A DNA stretch of 64,000 nt, taken from contig NZ_CP071090.1 of the NCBI RefSeq assembly GCF_017301735.1, forward strand, positions 12,569,001 to 12,633,000, given 5' to 3'. Position 1 is the stretch's first letter, and every line of letters starts with the position of its first letter. Under the pieces are notes generated by a model. The model was not told the DNA's origin. It was given only the letters and a program-made list of their open reading frames with translations, and searched no databases. This document shows positions 11,150 to 17,217 of the stretch, piece after piece. Origin of the DNA: Pyxidicoccus parkwaysis (lineage in GTDB: Bacteria; Myxococcota; Myxococcia; Myxococcales; Myxococcaceae). The position numbers were made by a program, and so were the translations under genes.

Positions 11150-13917
11150 CCTTCTCCCTTCCCCAGGCGTGGGTGCTGCTGCTCCCGCTGGGCCTCTTCC
11201 TCTGGAAGTACGGACGGCGGCCGGGCCCGCCCATGTGGCTGCGCGCCGCGCTGCTGGTGCTCGCGGTGGGCGCGCTGGCTGGCCCCGAGCTGCGGCTGGC
11301 GGACGCGGGCAGTGACGTCGTCGTGGTGGTGGACCGCTCCGCCTCCATGCCTCGCGACATGGACCGCACCGCGCAGGAGCTCATCTCCCTGCTGGAGGCC
11401 CAGCGCCGTCCGGGAGACCGCGTCGGTGTCATCACCTTCGGCCGCGAGCCTCGCGTGGAGCAGTCGCTCACGGCCACCGGCCACTTCGGCGGCTTCACGC
11501 GGCCGGTGGACGTGGAGGCTTCCGATTTGTCGGCCGCGCTGGATGCGGCCGGTGGTCTCATTCCCAACGAGCGCACCGGGCGCGTGCTGGTGCTGTCCGA
11601 CGGGCGGGCCACGGGCGTGGATGCGCGCGGCGCGTCGCGGAGGCTGGCGGCGCGGGGGCTCGCGGTGGACTGGCGCCAGCTCGCGCGGTCGGAACCTCCG
11701 CTGGACGTGGCCGTCGTCTCGCTGGACGTGCCCTCGTCCGTGGCGGTGCGCGAGCCGTTCCAGTTCTCCGCCGTGGTGCATTCCACGGCGGCCGTCACCG
11801 GCACGGTGCGCCTGGAGCGCAACGGCCGCGTGCTCGTGAAGGGCCCCTATGACTTCGTGCCCGGCGCCAATGTGTTGCCGCTGAGGGACCTCGTCGAGGA
11901 GCCGGGGCTCGTGCGCTACCAGCTCACGGTGGAGGCGCCCGGCGACGGCGTCACGGAGAACGACAAGGGGCTCGCGGTGCTGCGCGTGGAGGGGCCACCT
12001 CGCGTGCTGCTCCTGACGAATCAGCCTCGGGGCACGCTCGCGAAGGCGCTCGCGGCCACGGGCATGAAGCTGGAGGTCCGCGCGCCCTTCCGGCTCACGC
12101 TGGATGACTTGGACGGCGTGGGCTCGCTGGTGCTGGAGAACGTGGACGCCAACACGCTGGGCGAGCCGGGGCTCAACGCGCTCGCGGCGTACGTGGAGCA
12201 GGCGGGGGGTGGGCTCGTGATGACGGGCGGGCGCAGCAGCTTCGGCGAGGGCGGCTACCGCAAGTCGCCGGTGGAGCCGCTGTTGCCCGTGTCGCTGGAG
12301 ATGCGCGAGGAGCAGCGCCGCGCGGCCGTGGCGCTGAGCGTGCTGATGGACTGCTCGTGCTCCATGGGTGTCAATGTTCCGGACGGACGCACGAAGATGG
12401 AGCTGGCCGCCGAGGGCGTGGTCGCCGCGCTCACGCTGCTCAACCCGAAGGACGAAGTGTCCGTCCACATGGTGGACACGGAGGCCCATGAAATCTTCCC
12501 GCTGAGCTCCGTGGAGGCGGGCCTGCCGCTGAACGAGGTGGCTCGCGGCTTCAGCGGCGGTGGCGGCATCTACGTGGGCGAGGCGCTGCGCACGGGCCGG
12601 AGTGAAATCCTCCGCAGCAAGAAGCCCACGCGGCACGTGCTGCTCTTCTCCGACGCGGCGGACTCCGAGGAGCCGGACGACTACCTGCGCACGCTGTCGG
12701 AGCTGCGCTCGAAGGACGTGACGGTGTCTGTCATTGGCCTGGGCTCGCCGAAGGACTCGGATGCGGAGCTCCTGAAGGAGGTGGCCACGCGCGGCGGCGG
12801 GCGCATCTACTTCGCCGAGGACGCGATGAGCCTGCCGCGCATCTTCAGCCAGGAGACGCTCACGGTGGCGCGCGCCACCTTCGTGGACGAGCCCGCGTCC
12901 ATTGAAGGCGCGCCGGACCTTCCGCTGCTGGGCCGGCTGTCTCCGGAGGGGCTGCCGCAGGTGGGTGGCTACAACCTCACGTACTTGAAGCCGCGCGCCA
13001 GCGTGGCGCTGCGGACGCTGGATGACAACGCGGCGCCGGTGCTGGCCATGTGGCCTCGCGGCGCGGGGCGCACGGTGGCCTTCACCGCGGAGGTGGACGG
13101 GCCGTACACGGGAGAGTTGCGACAGTGGAGCTCGTTGCGCGCGGCGCTGGAGGCCATGGTGCGCTGGACGCTCGCGGGCGCGACGCCCGTGGGCGAGGCG
13201 GTGGTGCGCTCCGAGCGGCGGGGCCACCTGCTACGCGTGACGTTGGACCTGCCTCCAGGCGAGCCGCTGCCGGGCGCGTTGCCCACGCTGGTGCTGCTGC
13301 CCGGGGAGGGACGCACCGCGCCGGTGGAGCGGCCGATGCGCTGGGAGGACGAGGACCGGCTGGTGGCGGAGTACCCGCTGCAGGGCAGCGGCACGTGGCA
13401 TCCGGTGGTGCGGCTGGGCTCGCGGGTGCTGCGCGCTCCGCCGGTGACGCTGCCGTATGCGCCGGAGTTCGAGCCCGGCAGCGCGAAGGAGGGACTGGAG
13501 TTGCTGCGCGCGGTGGCGGCGGTGGGCGGCGGGGTGGAGCGTCTGTCCATGACGGGGCTGTTCATGGAGGCGCCTGAGTCGCAGGGACGTCTCGCCCTGG
13601 CGCCGTGGCTGGTGGGCCTGGCGCTGGCCGTGCTGCTGGCGGAGGTGGCCGTGCGCCGCTTCCTCTCAGGACCTCGGCTGCGCAGGCCCGTCACTGCGCC
13701 CGTGGCGAAGCCCGCGTTCGCTGGAGCGCCGGCTGTGAATGTGAGCGCCGCGCCTGCCCGTTCCGCGCCCGTGGTGGAGCGCAAGCCCGCGGTGGAGAGC
13801 GAGGAGCAGCGGGCCGCCACGCCCACGGAAGCGGACGCCGCGAAGCCGAAGGAGGGCGGAGTGGACTCCGCGCTGGAGGCCGCGCGCGCTCGTGCCCGCC
13901 GACGATTGGATCGGTGA
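11146..13917 (+). CDS. Large membrane protein with two VWA domains and a glutamine-amidotransferase-like fold
   Basis: This 923-residue protein starts with two membrane helices (about 5-20 and 27-45). A first VWA domain follows with VVVVVDRSASM at about 56-66 (DxSxS site). A class-I-amidotransferase-like region lies around 285-385, with GGGLVMTGGRSSFGEGGY near its end. A second VWA domain starts with VLMDCSCSMG near 397, and a C-terminal helix lies near 820-840. This matches the large BatB/DUF1355-like proteins found with MoxR operons. The Ala/Pro/Glu-rich cytoplasmic tail (about 850-923) ends in basic residues. A shifted copy of its 3' end lies downstream at 13973-14035. It is probably a further client of the MoxR/DUF58 module. 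Confidence 0.85.
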   Translation: MTFSLPQAWVLLLPLGLFLWKYGRRPGPPMWLRAALLVLAVGALAGPELRLADAGSDVVVVVDRSASMPRDMDRTAQELISLLEAQRRPGDRVGVITFGREPRVEQSLTATGHFGGFTRPVDVEASDLSAALDAAGGLIPNERTGRVLVLSDGRATGVDARGASRRLAARGLAVDWRQLARSEPPLDVAVVSLDVPSSVAVREPFQFSAVVHSTAAVTGTVRLERNGRVLVKGPYDFVPGANVLPLRDLVEEPGLVRYQLTVEAPGDGVTENDKGLAVLRVEGPPRVLLLTNQPRGTLAKALAATGMKLEVRAPFRLTLDDLDGVGSLVLENVDANTLGEPGLNALAAYVEQAGGGLVMTGGRSSFGEGGYRKSPVEPLLPVSLEMREEQRRAAVALSVLMDCSCSMGVNVPDGRTKMELAAEGVVAALTLLNPKDEVSVHMVDTEAHEIFPLSSVEAGLPLNEVARGFSGGGGIYVGEALRTGRSEILRSKKPTRHVLLFSDAADSEEPDDYLRTLSELRSKDVTVSVIGLGSPKDSDAELLKEVATRGGGRIYFAEDAMSLPRIFSQETLTVARATFVDEPASIEGAPDLPLLGRLSPEGLPQVGGYNLTYLKPRASVALRTLDDNAAPVLAMWPRGAGRTVAFTAEVDGPYTGELRQWSSLRAALEAMVRWTLAGATPVGEAVVRSERRGHLLRVTLDLPPGEPLPGALPTLVLLPGEGRTAPVERPMRWEDEDRLVAEYPLQGSGTWHPVVRLGSRVLRAPPVTLPYAPEFEPGSAKEGLELLRAVAAVGGGVERLSMTGLFMEAPESQGRLALAPWLVGLALAVLLAEVAVRRFLSGPRLRRPVTAPVAKPAFAGAPAVNVSAAPARSAPVVERKPAVESEEQRAATPTEADAAKPKEGGVDSALEAARARARRRLDR

Positions 13918-14541
13918 GGGTGAGGGTGCGAGTGGGTCGGTTCGTCAGTCAGTCAGTGACCAGGCCGTGGAGGCCGCGAAGCCGAGGAGGGCTCCTCGCT
14001 GGAGGCCGCGCGTGCGCTGACGGTTGACTCGGTGCCGGTGCGAGCAGGGCCGCGCTTCTGTCAGTGATTGGACCGCAGCTGTCGCGGAGGTCACCGCTCA
14101 CGCCCGCTTTCGCCGACGATGCGGCGGGAGCTGACTCGGGGCACGGCGCTCCTTCACCCGATGGAATCAGCCGGGACCGGGCAGACGAGGTCCCACGCGC
14201 GGGAGGTGGCAACGCCACGAAAAGGTGCGGGCTGGCCGGACTCGGGAACGACGCTCAGTGCTGAGGCACAGCCCGCGGTGAAAAGGTGCGGGCCGCCCCG
14301 GGTACGAGATGGGCAGTCACAGTTGTGGGGCGGCCCGCGGTGACACGGTACGGGTCGTCCCTGACTCAGGATGCAGACTCACAGTTGGGGGGCGACCTGC
14401 GGGTGAGGCTCGGATGACCCCTGTACACGGAGGGGAGAACTAAAGTTGCGGGGTAATCCGTTCCCCGTGGGTCTCACAGGGTGATGAGGAAGATACACGG
14501 GAAGTGTGCTTGGCGCAACAGAATTGGAAATTTCTTCGAGG
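13918..14541. other. 624-bp gene-free region with degenerate duplications
   Basis: No convincing gene was found. The first part has short direct repeats (GTGAGGGTGAGGGTG at 13914-13928, three tandem GTCA steps near 13944-13958) and a degraded copy of the preceding gene's 3' end at 13973-14035. The second half carries a degenerate ~62-bp tandem repeat (14217-14455). Open frames here do not keep codon bias across the repeats. The region should hold the promoter of the AlkD-like gene; the last 80 bp before 14542 are less GC-rich (for example TTGGAAATTTCTTCG). Confidence 0.6.
14217..14455. repeat. Degenerate ~62-bp tandem repeat, about four units
   Basis: Units begin near 14217, 14280, 14342 and 14403. 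The first two share GAAAAGGTGCGGGC, and the third has ACACGGTACGGGTCGTCCC at the same phase. Each of the first three ends in a variant of GCCCGCGGTG, and units 2-4 share an AGTTG(T/C)GGGG-type block. Units have diverged by substitutions and small indels and hold no conserved open frame. It is not a CRISPR array, since there is no constant repeat with unique spacers. Confidence 0.6.
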
Positions 14542-15813
14542 ATGAAAAATCTAGACATGGACCTCCCAGAAACGATGCGCGAGCTGGAGTCGTTGGGCTC
14601 GGAGCCGACGCGGAAGACGTTCCTTCGCCACGGGGCTCCGGAGCCGCTCTTTGGCGTGAAGTTCGGGGACCTGGAGAAGCTGCGGAAGCGCATCAAGACG
14701 GATGCGGGGCTGGCCGAGGCGCTGTGGGAAACGGGGCACTCGGATGCGCGCATGCTGGCGACGATGGTGGCGGACGCCGCCGTCATGTCCTGGGAGCGTC
14801 TGGATGCCTGGGCTCAGGCGCTGAACTGGCACTCGCTGGTGGATGTCTTCGTCAACAACGTGGCGCTGCGCTCAGCGCACTTCAAGCAGGCGGTGGAGAC
14901 GTGGACGGCGCGGTCCACGGAGATGCAGGCGCGCGCGGGCTGGCAGTTGCTCGCGGCACTGGCCACCAAGACGCAGCACCTGACGGACGATGAGCTGGCC
15001 GTGTGGCTGCCGCGCCTCGAGCAGGGCATCCACAGCGCGCAGAACCGCGTGCGCGAGGCAATGAACACGGCGCTGATTGCCATTGGCGGGCGCGGCGGCC
15101 CGGTGGGCGACGCGGCGCTCGAGGTGGCGAAGCGCATCGGCAAGGTGGAGGTGGACCACGGCGACACCGCCTGCGAGACGCCGGATGCGGTGCAGTCCAT
15201 CCAGAAGATGCGGGCCCGGAAGGAGGGCGGAGTGGCCAAGGCCGCCGCCGTGGCGAAGGGCGCGGTGGACAGCGTGAAGGACCTGGCGGCGAAGGCGCAG
15301 GACGTGGCGTCGTCGGGCGCGATGAGTGCCGTGGACAGCGTGAAGGACCTGGCGGCGAAGGCGCAGGACGTGGCGTCGGGCGCGGTGAGCGCCGTGGTCC
15401 ATGCGAAGGACGTGGTGGCGGAGGCGGTCTCGAAGGTGGCGAAGCGCGCGCGCAAGGTTCCCGAGGCCGCGCGTGGTGCGGCGAAGAAGGCTCGGGCGAA
15501 GGTGAGCAGCGTGGCCAGGAAGGCGCCGGCTCCCGCGAAGAAGGCGCTGGCTCGCAAGGCAACGCGTGTGACGGGCACCACCCCCAAGGCGAAGAAGGCT
15601 GCTGCGAAGCGCGGTGGCACCACGACGGCGAAGAAGGCCACGGCGAAGCGCGGAGCTTCCTCTGCGGCGAGGCGGACCACGGTGAAGCCGGCAGCCGCAG
15701 CGCCGAAGAAGACGACCGTGAAGAGAGCCGCTCCCGCGCCGAAGAGAGCCACTGCGAAGAAGGCGGCCCCGGCGCGGAGCAGGACCGGAGCCAGGTCTCG
15801 CGCCCGGTCGTGA
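14542..15813 (+). CDS. AlkD-like DNA alkylation repair protein with a histone-H1-like Lys/Ala/Pro tail
   Basis: This 423-residue protein has two parts. Residues 1 to about 225 form a helical, HEAT-like domain of the DNA alkylation repair (AlkC/AlkD) family, with RKTFLRHGAPEPLFGVKFGD, an LWETGHSDARMLATMVAD stretch and WHSLVDVFVNN. Residues about 228-423 form a strongly basic tail: a 22-residue direct repeat (AVDSVKDLAAKAQDVAS), then KKA, KRG and APAP motifs like histone H1. The tail should bind DNA or compact chromatin non-specifically and tether the repair domain. ATG 14542 is my choice; GTG 14506 and ATG 14557 are alternatives. It is monocistronic and downstream of the repeat region. AlkD function is inferred from the family. 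Confidence 0.8.
   Translation: MKNLDMDLPETMRELESLGSEPTRKTFLRHGAPEPLFGVKFGDLEKLRKRIKTDAGLAEALWETGHSDARMLATMVADAAVMSWERLDAWAQALNWHSLVDVFVNNVALRSAHFKQAVETWTARSTEMQARAGWQLLAALATKTQHLTDDELAVWLPRLEQGIHSAQNRVREAMNTALIAIGGRGGPVGDAALEVAKRIGKVEVDHGDTACETPDAVQSIQKMRARKEGGVAKAAAVAKGAVDSVKDLAAKAQDVASSGAMSAVDSVKDLAAKAQDVASGAVSAVVHAKDVVAEAVSKVAKRARKVPEAARGAAKKARAKVSSVARKAPAPAKKALARKATRVTGTTPKAKKAAAKRGGTTTAKKATAKRGASSAARRTTVKPAAAAPKKTTVKRAAPAPKRATAKKAAPARSRTGARSRARS
15265..15378 (+). repeat. Two identical 48-bp stretches 66 bp apart inside the basic tail
   Basis: Bases 15265-15312 recur identically at 15331-15378. The 66-bp period equals 22 codons, so it encodes a 22-residue repeat. The near identity implies a recent in-frame duplication or gene conversion in the H1-like tail. 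Confidence 0.85.
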
Positions 15814-15864
15814 CGGAATCACGGTGCCGCGGCTTCGCGCCGCGGCCCTGGCCTCACTCCACTC

Positions 15865-17217
15865 CTACGGGCACAGCTTCTGGCCACCGGCCTGCTTGTA
15901 CGCCTTCACGCGGTTGACGAGATTGCCGTTGTCCGACTCCGGCGTGGTCGTCCCGTCGATGCCGGCGCCGAACGCGAAGCCCACGGAGTGGGCGGCGGCC
16001 AGCTCGGCGGTGTGCGCGAAGAAGTAGTCCACGCGGTTGTCCTTCCACTTGTTGCCCGAGTTGGGCAGCGCCATGTTGCCCACCGGGAGCTGCCACCAGA
16101 AGTTCGGCTTGTTCAGCCGCTCCGAGAGGGCCTTGGCCCACGCGAAGGCCTGGTGGAAGTGGGGCAGGGTGGCGTTGTTCGCGTCCCACCACGTGTTCTC
16201 GCCCTGGTTCACCTGGTACCAGCCCGCGTCGCGGTCCGACGCCTCGATGACGATGAAGTCCGTGTCGGCCGCGCCCAGCTTCAACAGGAAGTCGGCCACC
16301 TTGCGCGCCTCGCCCGCCACGTCGAAGGACGCCTGCGCGTTGAGGTACACGTCCATCTTCGTGGCCCACGGGCTCGCGTGCAGGCCCACCTTCGCGTTGG
16401 GCGCGTACTTGCGCGCCATCGCCACCATGCAGCGTGCCAGCCCCACGGCGTTGTTCGGCTGCGTGCCGCAGTCCGTGGGATTGGCAGTGGTCACCTTCGC
16501 CGGCACCTGGGCCGGGTCCCCATTGGTCGCATTGAACTGGACGTAGCCCCACAGGTCCGGCTCGAGGTGGAGCAGCGCCTTCTCGGTGCCCACCTGCTGA
16601 AGCGTGAAGCGCCAGTCATTCAGGTAGCGCTGCAGGAAGGCCGCGTCGTTGAGCGCGCCGAGCTGCGCCGCGCCTTCGCCCAGGCGGCTCCCCAGCAACT
16701 GCACGTAGTAGGTGATGAAGGGAAGCTGGCCCCGCCCCTTCGCCGTGCGGACGAAGTCCCGCACCATGGCTCCCGGAGCGACGGCGATGTCCTGCCAGCA
16801 GCCCCACCACGCGCACGCGTACTGGCCGCAGGAGCCCTCCTGCGTCGTGCACGAGTCGTTGCAAGCAGTGCAGACGCTGGACGACTGCGTGAGCGCGCTC
16901 GAGATGTAGAGGTAGTGCACGTCGAAGGCCGCGCTGGAGGCGGTGCTGTTCTCCATCTTCGCGCCGACCAGCAGCTTGTCCTTCCCGAGCGACGTCAGGA
17001 ACGAATCCCCCAGGCACGCCGAGGGCTGGGTGCCGCCGTCCGTGTTGCCACCAGTGCCCGCGTCCGTCTCGCCGCTCGTGCCTGCGTCCACGCCAGCGTC
17101 CGCGCCGGGCTTGTCGCCGCCGTCGTCATCCGAGCTGGAGGAGCAGCCCGCCAGCGCCAGCAGGCCCAGGGTGAGGAACGCGAGTCGCTTCATCCGCTTC
17201 GGAGAGGAAGTACGCAT
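15865..17217 (-). CDS. Secreted lipoprotein, possible glycoside-hydrolase-like TIM barrel
   Basis: This 450-residue lipoprotein has a signal peptide with lipobox LALAGC followed by a Ser/Asp linker and DAG/GT-rich spacer (to about residue 70). The mature domain has strand-like motifs ending in acidic or aromatic residues (LLHLEPDLWGYVQ, TDFIVIEASDRDAGWY, FWWQLPVGNM), spaced as in TIM-barrel glycosidases. A Cys-rich early loop (CTACNDSCTTQEGSCGQYAC) is probably disulfide-linked. The motifs suggest a carbohydrate-active enzyme, but I cannot name a family. ATG 17217 has GGGGG 5 nt upstream; ATG 17193 is an alternative. It is divergent from the lipoprotein at 17425, with a palindrome between them. 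Confidence 0.6.
   Translation of the reverse strand: MRTSSPKRMKRLAFLTLGLLALAGCSSSSDDDGGDKPGADAGVDAGTSGETDAGTGGNTDGGTQPSACLGDSFLTSLGKDKLLVGAKMENSTASSAAFDVHYLYISSALTQSSSVCTACNDSCTTQEGSCGQYACAWWGCWQDIAVAPGAMVRDFVRTAKGRGQLPFITYYVQLLGSRLGEGAAQLGALNDAAFLQRYLNDWRFTLQQVGTEKALLHLEPDLWGYVQFNATNGDPAQVPAKVTTANPTDCGTQPNNAVGLARCMVAMARKYAPNAKVGLHASPWATKMDVYLNAQASFDVAGEARKVADFLLKLGAADTDFIVIEASDRDAGWYQVNQGENTWWDANNATLPHFHQAFAWAKALSERLNKPNFWWQLPVGNMALPNSGNKWKDNRVDYFFAHTAELAAAHSVGFAFGAGIDGTTTPESDNGNLVNRVKAYKQAGGQKLCP

Follow-up and report, generated by a model that had tools for sequence, protein, structure and literature searches.

The gene analysed here lies in a window of 64,000 nucleotides from the genome of Pyxidicoccus parkwaysis, to which all coordinates refer. 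An open reading frame on the plus strand (14542–15813) runs uninterrupted over 423 amino acids. Translation probably starts at the ATG at 14557 (MDLPETM...) and not at the one at 14542, because the former is the first Met common to the orthologues, two of which (L004 and L030) lack a Met immediately before it. The coding sequence then spans 14557–15810 (+), with a stop codon at 15811–15813, and encodes a protein of 418 amino acids. A HEAT-like-repeat domain (14557–15228) is followed by an amphipathic helical segment (15232–15456) and a basic part rich in Lys, Ala and Pro (15457–15810), all on the plus strand. Third-position GC is level through the protein, at 91% in the domain and 88% in the tail, indicating that the tail is a coding, in-frame extension of the domain; Lys is encoded by AAG at 31 of 31 codons in the tail. 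A separate gene or a frameshift is ruled out, as both the open frame and the third-position GC are continuous and the five genomes of the genus agree. The initial annotation had proposed a fusion of a domain with a histone H1-like tail in one frame, and the frame, the GC and the orthologues bear this out; nothing points to a tail encoded by a separate gene after frame correction.

The domain matches the Pfam family PF08713 (DNA_alkylation) at E=4e-19, with 69.6 bits against a curated cut-off of 21. It has a pI of 6.2 and a net charge of -3. Among solved HEAT-like-repeat proteins AlkF/AlkG are the nearest by both sequence and fold. A PDB sequence search returns only entries for Bacillus cereus AlkF (3zbo and 1t06, E about 1e-31), and AlkF was returned again by a search with L091 that sought the residues specific to AlkD catalysis, a Trp/Asp pair. 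Three other loci considered as examples of AlkD (L172–L174) looked like another type and were left out. Confidence in the AlphaFold model is high for residues 1–200 (block means 93–99), and the model matches AlkF with Z 28.6 and rmsd 2.0 over 222 residues at 32% identity, versus Z 13.8 and rmsd 3.6 over 201 residues for AlkD (3bvs) and Z 12.2 for AlkD2, with identity to these two at 13–14%. Further structure-search matches (Foldseek, VIA-align) are generic helical-repeat matches and were left out. The assignment of the predicted fold to the AlkF/AlkG type is firm. The earlier description as an AlkD-like repair domain therefore holds at the level of the superfamily, but not at that of the family.

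The domain nevertheless does not appear to be an AlkF. AlkF and AlkG carry a basic beta-hairpin (R203, K206 and K207 in AlkF), whereas the aligned stretch in the window, VEVDHGDTACETPDA (15145–15189, +), contains no Lys or Arg and is modelled as coil, with no hairpin. The absence of these charges, together with the coil, suggests a sister branch. AlkF in turn lacks the DHGDTxCxTP motif found at this place, and its C-terminus is short, without an H1-like arm. The motif of the branch can be written VxVDxGxTxCxTPDA. All 22 members recovered by protein and profile searches fit [VI]x[VI]DxGxTxCxTP, and the D, G, T, C, T and P are kept in every one; replacement of H by Q or Y and of the second D by E is seen. 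These 22 include the window's own gene and five (L075, L082, L089, L104 and L106) that also belong to a first collection of 43 loci. That collection was found in part with the pattern KVEVDHGD, and its motif invariance is discounted. The motif is kept from Bacillota to Myxococcota and in a Nanoarchaeia MAG, making it a clear target for mutagenesis. No characterised member of the branch was found in the AlkF/AlkG literature, and VDHGDT occurs in none of the texts searched, a set that subscription papers mostly fall outside.

Across 299 Bacilli genomes, matches fall into three score tiers: the DHGDT type (6 genomes), a type with mostly CIC endings (12 genomes), and, as the third, AlkF. A quick tree, from which six near-duplicates were left out, is unrooted and has many weak forks; it places the CIC-ending type and AlkF in one clade (support 99) with the DHGDT type around them. 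The CIC-ending proteins (VDVGQTACKVPLA ... KKKTCIC) are AlkG-like, and that they are AlkG itself is a guess. They share the superfamily and the TxCK core of the motif with the DHGDT type, but their motif is otherwise different, most end in CIC, and they carry no Lys/Ala/Pro arm.

The tail comprises 193 residues with a pI of 11.9 and a net charge of +40. It had been described as a Lys/Ala/Pro tail of ~200 residues; the long basic tail is present, but this description merges two parts. The first (residues about 226–300) consists of ~22-residue units and is amphipathic. Its hydrophobic periodicity peaks at 99 degrees, as expected of a helix, and is matched in strength by 0 of 1000 shuffles; the same periodicity is found in all four proteins of the genus that were tested (0–1 of 1000 shuffles as strong). 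AlphaFold predicts helices at residues 211–253, 256–274 and 278–298 with pLDDT of about 58–81. The second part (residues about 301–418) has pLDDT mostly between 36 and 58 and is mostly predicted to be disordered. It is rich in Lys, Ala and Pro, carries five AKKA motifs and has a net charge of +38 over the last 120 residues, features typical of H1-like or PAKKA tails. The tails of mycobacterial HbhA and HupB are likewise of the AKKA/PAKKA type and are reported to bind DNA (PMC10665949). Neither protein has a HEAT-repeat domain fused to it, and the likeness is one of composition that does not imply descent from a common tail. The tail matches neither HC2 nor any other histone H1-like Pfam family at E up to 0.5, although profiles frequently miss tails of low complexity. 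Three orthologue tails match a grass antifreeze family in Pfam, but below the cut-off, and these matches were taken as repeat artefacts.

Within the tail region Tandem Repeats Finder detects a period of 66 bp. The first copy of the unit occupies 15262–15327 and the second, of 63 bp, 15328–15390 (both +). The copies share an identical run of 48 nt; three mismatches and a single gap of 3 nt set them apart. The second copy is absent from the four genus orthologues, which have a single unit at that place, so the in-frame duplication previously noted is real and is seen in this lineage only. The duplicated region is, however, just 21 nt longer than the corresponding region of L004. Taken with the single copy in the orthologues, this points to duplication followed by loss, or to conversion, in the P. 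parkwaysis lineage.

The gene is present in 5 of 27 genomes of the genus, and a tail is found in all four orthologues as well as in the window's protein. The five C-terminal arms range from 192 to 270 amino acids, while their net charge stays between +40 and +54; it is therefore the composition of the tail, rather than its sequence, that is kept. The fusion also extends to other myxobacteria. Of the nine orthologues known from the Corallococcus group, eight have an arm of at least 28 amino acids (that of L084 has only 7). These arms are shorter than the tails of the genus and lack the amphipathic segment, the basic part being common to both. Nannocystis tails have 39–44 amino acids and the Paraliomyxa tail has 50, with TAAKK repeats. 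Paenibacillus and Bacilli members have almost no tail.

Arms also occur elsewhere in the superfamily and at the other terminus. One clade, of Planctomycetota type (14 rows, support 91), has a basic N-terminal extension in 13 of 14 members, namely 12 of 13 (L068 doubtful, L050 without one) plus L088, as scored by eye and net charge; under a strict rule, applied to any 30-residue window, only 5 of these N-arms count. Members of this type (L048–L068) also have a conserved stretch of ~24 residues at the C-terminus, roughly F-x-[ST]PAA-x-E-x-xRE...RxRC. A C-terminal Cys recurs in the superfamily, at or near the end of the Planctomycetota-type proteins, in the AlkF of Bacilli and in the CIC type. 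A clade of myxobacterial paralogues (support 98) has a C-terminal Lys/Ala arm of its own in 14 of 14 rows. This second HEAT-like-repeat protein (L009–L025 and others; tail GEKTEARK...) was not found in the window's genome. Given the opposite termini and the separate clades, basic arms were gained at least three times, the rows within each clade being related and not independent events. By the strict rule, arms are present in 15 of 21 paralogues. Among the DHGDT-type loci they occur in 16 of the 37 whose GC is at least 60%, but in 0 of 9 with lower GC and in none of the Paenibacillus loci. The arm is thus not essential to the family. Compensation of an acidic domain by the arm is unsupported, as the arm-less Paenibacillus and Bacilli domains are equally acidic. 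Gene neighbourhood offers no clue to function, the ORFs around the 43 loci yielding only the family itself and apparent reading-frame shadows.

On balance, the protein is probably a DNA-binding protein of the AlkF/AlkG type, from the DHGDT branch, in which an H1-like arm would serve as an electrostatic tether to DNA for a domain that binds DNA structures. The mechanism is moderately likely and presumes that both domain and arm bind DNA. The curved face of the HEAT repeats would bind a particular shape of DNA, such as a junction, a fork or other distorted DNA, with the DHGDT loop sitting where the hairpin of AlkF enters the major groove. The flexible basic arm would hold the protein loosely on any DNA, raising its local concentration and slowing dissociation, and the amphipathic segment may act as a semi-rigid spacer or as an element for self-association. 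We infer the preference for junctions, the lack of glycosylase activity and the role as a spacer. That the domain carries such a tail at one terminus here and at the other in relatives from another bacterial group suggests that the tail helps the domain to hold DNA. The DHGDT residues could be catalytic, in which case 'structure binder' would be an incomplete description. AlkF is reported to have two modes of DNA scanning, which rely on the hairpin charges R203, K206 and K207 (PMC8282808, PMC4433238). The effect of an arm on scanning would be measurable by the single-molecule method that has been applied to AlkF, and arms at opposite ends of one domain provide a natural experiment for learning how basic, disordered tails aid DNA-scanning proteins.

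The arm could instead be a largely neutral or generic by-product, with K/A-rich repeats expanding by slippage in high-GC genomes and having no specific role. Arms do grow by tandem repeats, as shown by the 66-bp unit here, the 13-residue repeats of L080 and the TAAKK repeats of L045, and their absence from low-GC members fits this account. In addition, the pattern AKKAxAKKA occurs in the genome at 16 sites in five other loci (0 in a reversed control), and similar arms are found on non-DNA proteins, which play no part in DNA repair. The H1-like K/A arms at L139, L148, L149, L150 and L154 belong to ValRS, EF-hand, SWIB, SMI1/KNR4-like (a sub-threshold match) and BCP-type peroxiredoxin proteins. 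Their presence on ValRS and a peroxiredoxin means that the tail alone neither proves tethering nor marks DNA repair; the suggestion that it tethers the protein to chromatin or concentrates it on DNA is, judged by comparison among relatives, the best supported of the roles considered. Such arms are nevertheless rare in the background. By the strict rule they occur in 3 of 300 gene-like ORFs of the genome, the protein itself left out, and in 3 of 200 neighbour ORFs, and by a second rule (last 60 residues rich in Lys and Ala) the AlkF-type protein is the only one of 259 gene-like ORFs to qualify, gene-like ORFs having been picked by third-position GC and not by annotation. Yet they have been gained repeatedly in this superfamily at either end, and their positive charge persists through changes in length and order. 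A by-product without specific role therefore seems rather unlikely.

More doubtful still is the proposal in the initial annotation of an active AlkD-like DNA glycosylase that the tail concentrates on DNA. The domain does share the superfamily and overall fold of AlkD, and no other PF08713 gene was found in the genome of 13.2 Mb. However, a search with a 33-sequence profile reaches AlkF at 2e-52, while neither AlkD nor AlkD2 appears in its list of 27 sequences (E up to 10). AlkD is a glycosylase and AlkF binds branched DNA with no catalytic activity detected (PMC8282808, PMC4433238; for AlkF also PMC4988193), and AlkF and AlkG are reported to excise none of the bases tested (PMC4988193). Binding to branched DNA is reported for AlkG as well. 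The label 'repair enzyme' is thus unsupported for this domain. Names such as 'DNA alkylation repair' attached to PF08713 can cover AlkF/AlkG-type branches with no known repair activity, and the loose label is corrected here. A phasin- or HbhA-like module (HbhA also has a helical part) for lipid, polyphosphate, storage granules or RNA in place of DNA would fit the amphipathic periodicity and a weak Phasin_2 match (E=0.07), but is very improbable, as this match is below the cut-off and does not recur in the results for three orthologue tails, and the Corallococcus-group proteins keep the basic part without the amphipathic segment.

Beyond the tethered DNA-structure binder favoured for this locus, the DHGDTxCxTP branch may, tentatively, constitute a widespread class of DNA-structure proteins, in bacteria and a Nanoarchaeia MAG, in which a conserved Asp/His/Cys loop replaces the groove hairpin of AlkF and interchangeable H1-like arms have been recruited repeatedly, in independent events, at either terminus. 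Although this wider view is the less likely to be correct, the loop would then perhaps be catalytic or redox-sensitive, and the arms would keep the proteins on chromatin in large, high-GC genomes.

Upstream of the gene, at 14222–14472 (+) between it and a VWA gene, lie four tandem units of ~62 nt, each containing a hairpin of 12 bp. The sole Rfam match listed over 13900–16000 is to mir-281, below threshold, and none is relevant to the array. When 12 such units, 11 of them distinct, are taken from three genomes, 92.2% of cells pair, versus at most 48.8% when the alignment is slid, and both sides have changed in 6 of the 12 pairs. A covariance model built from these units was run on 61 relatives and finds 1–7 units in 16 of them, every one a member of the genus. 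At each of the seven positions examined the array closely follows the VWA gene, and in two genomes (G011 and G019) it is present where the AlkF-type gene is absent.
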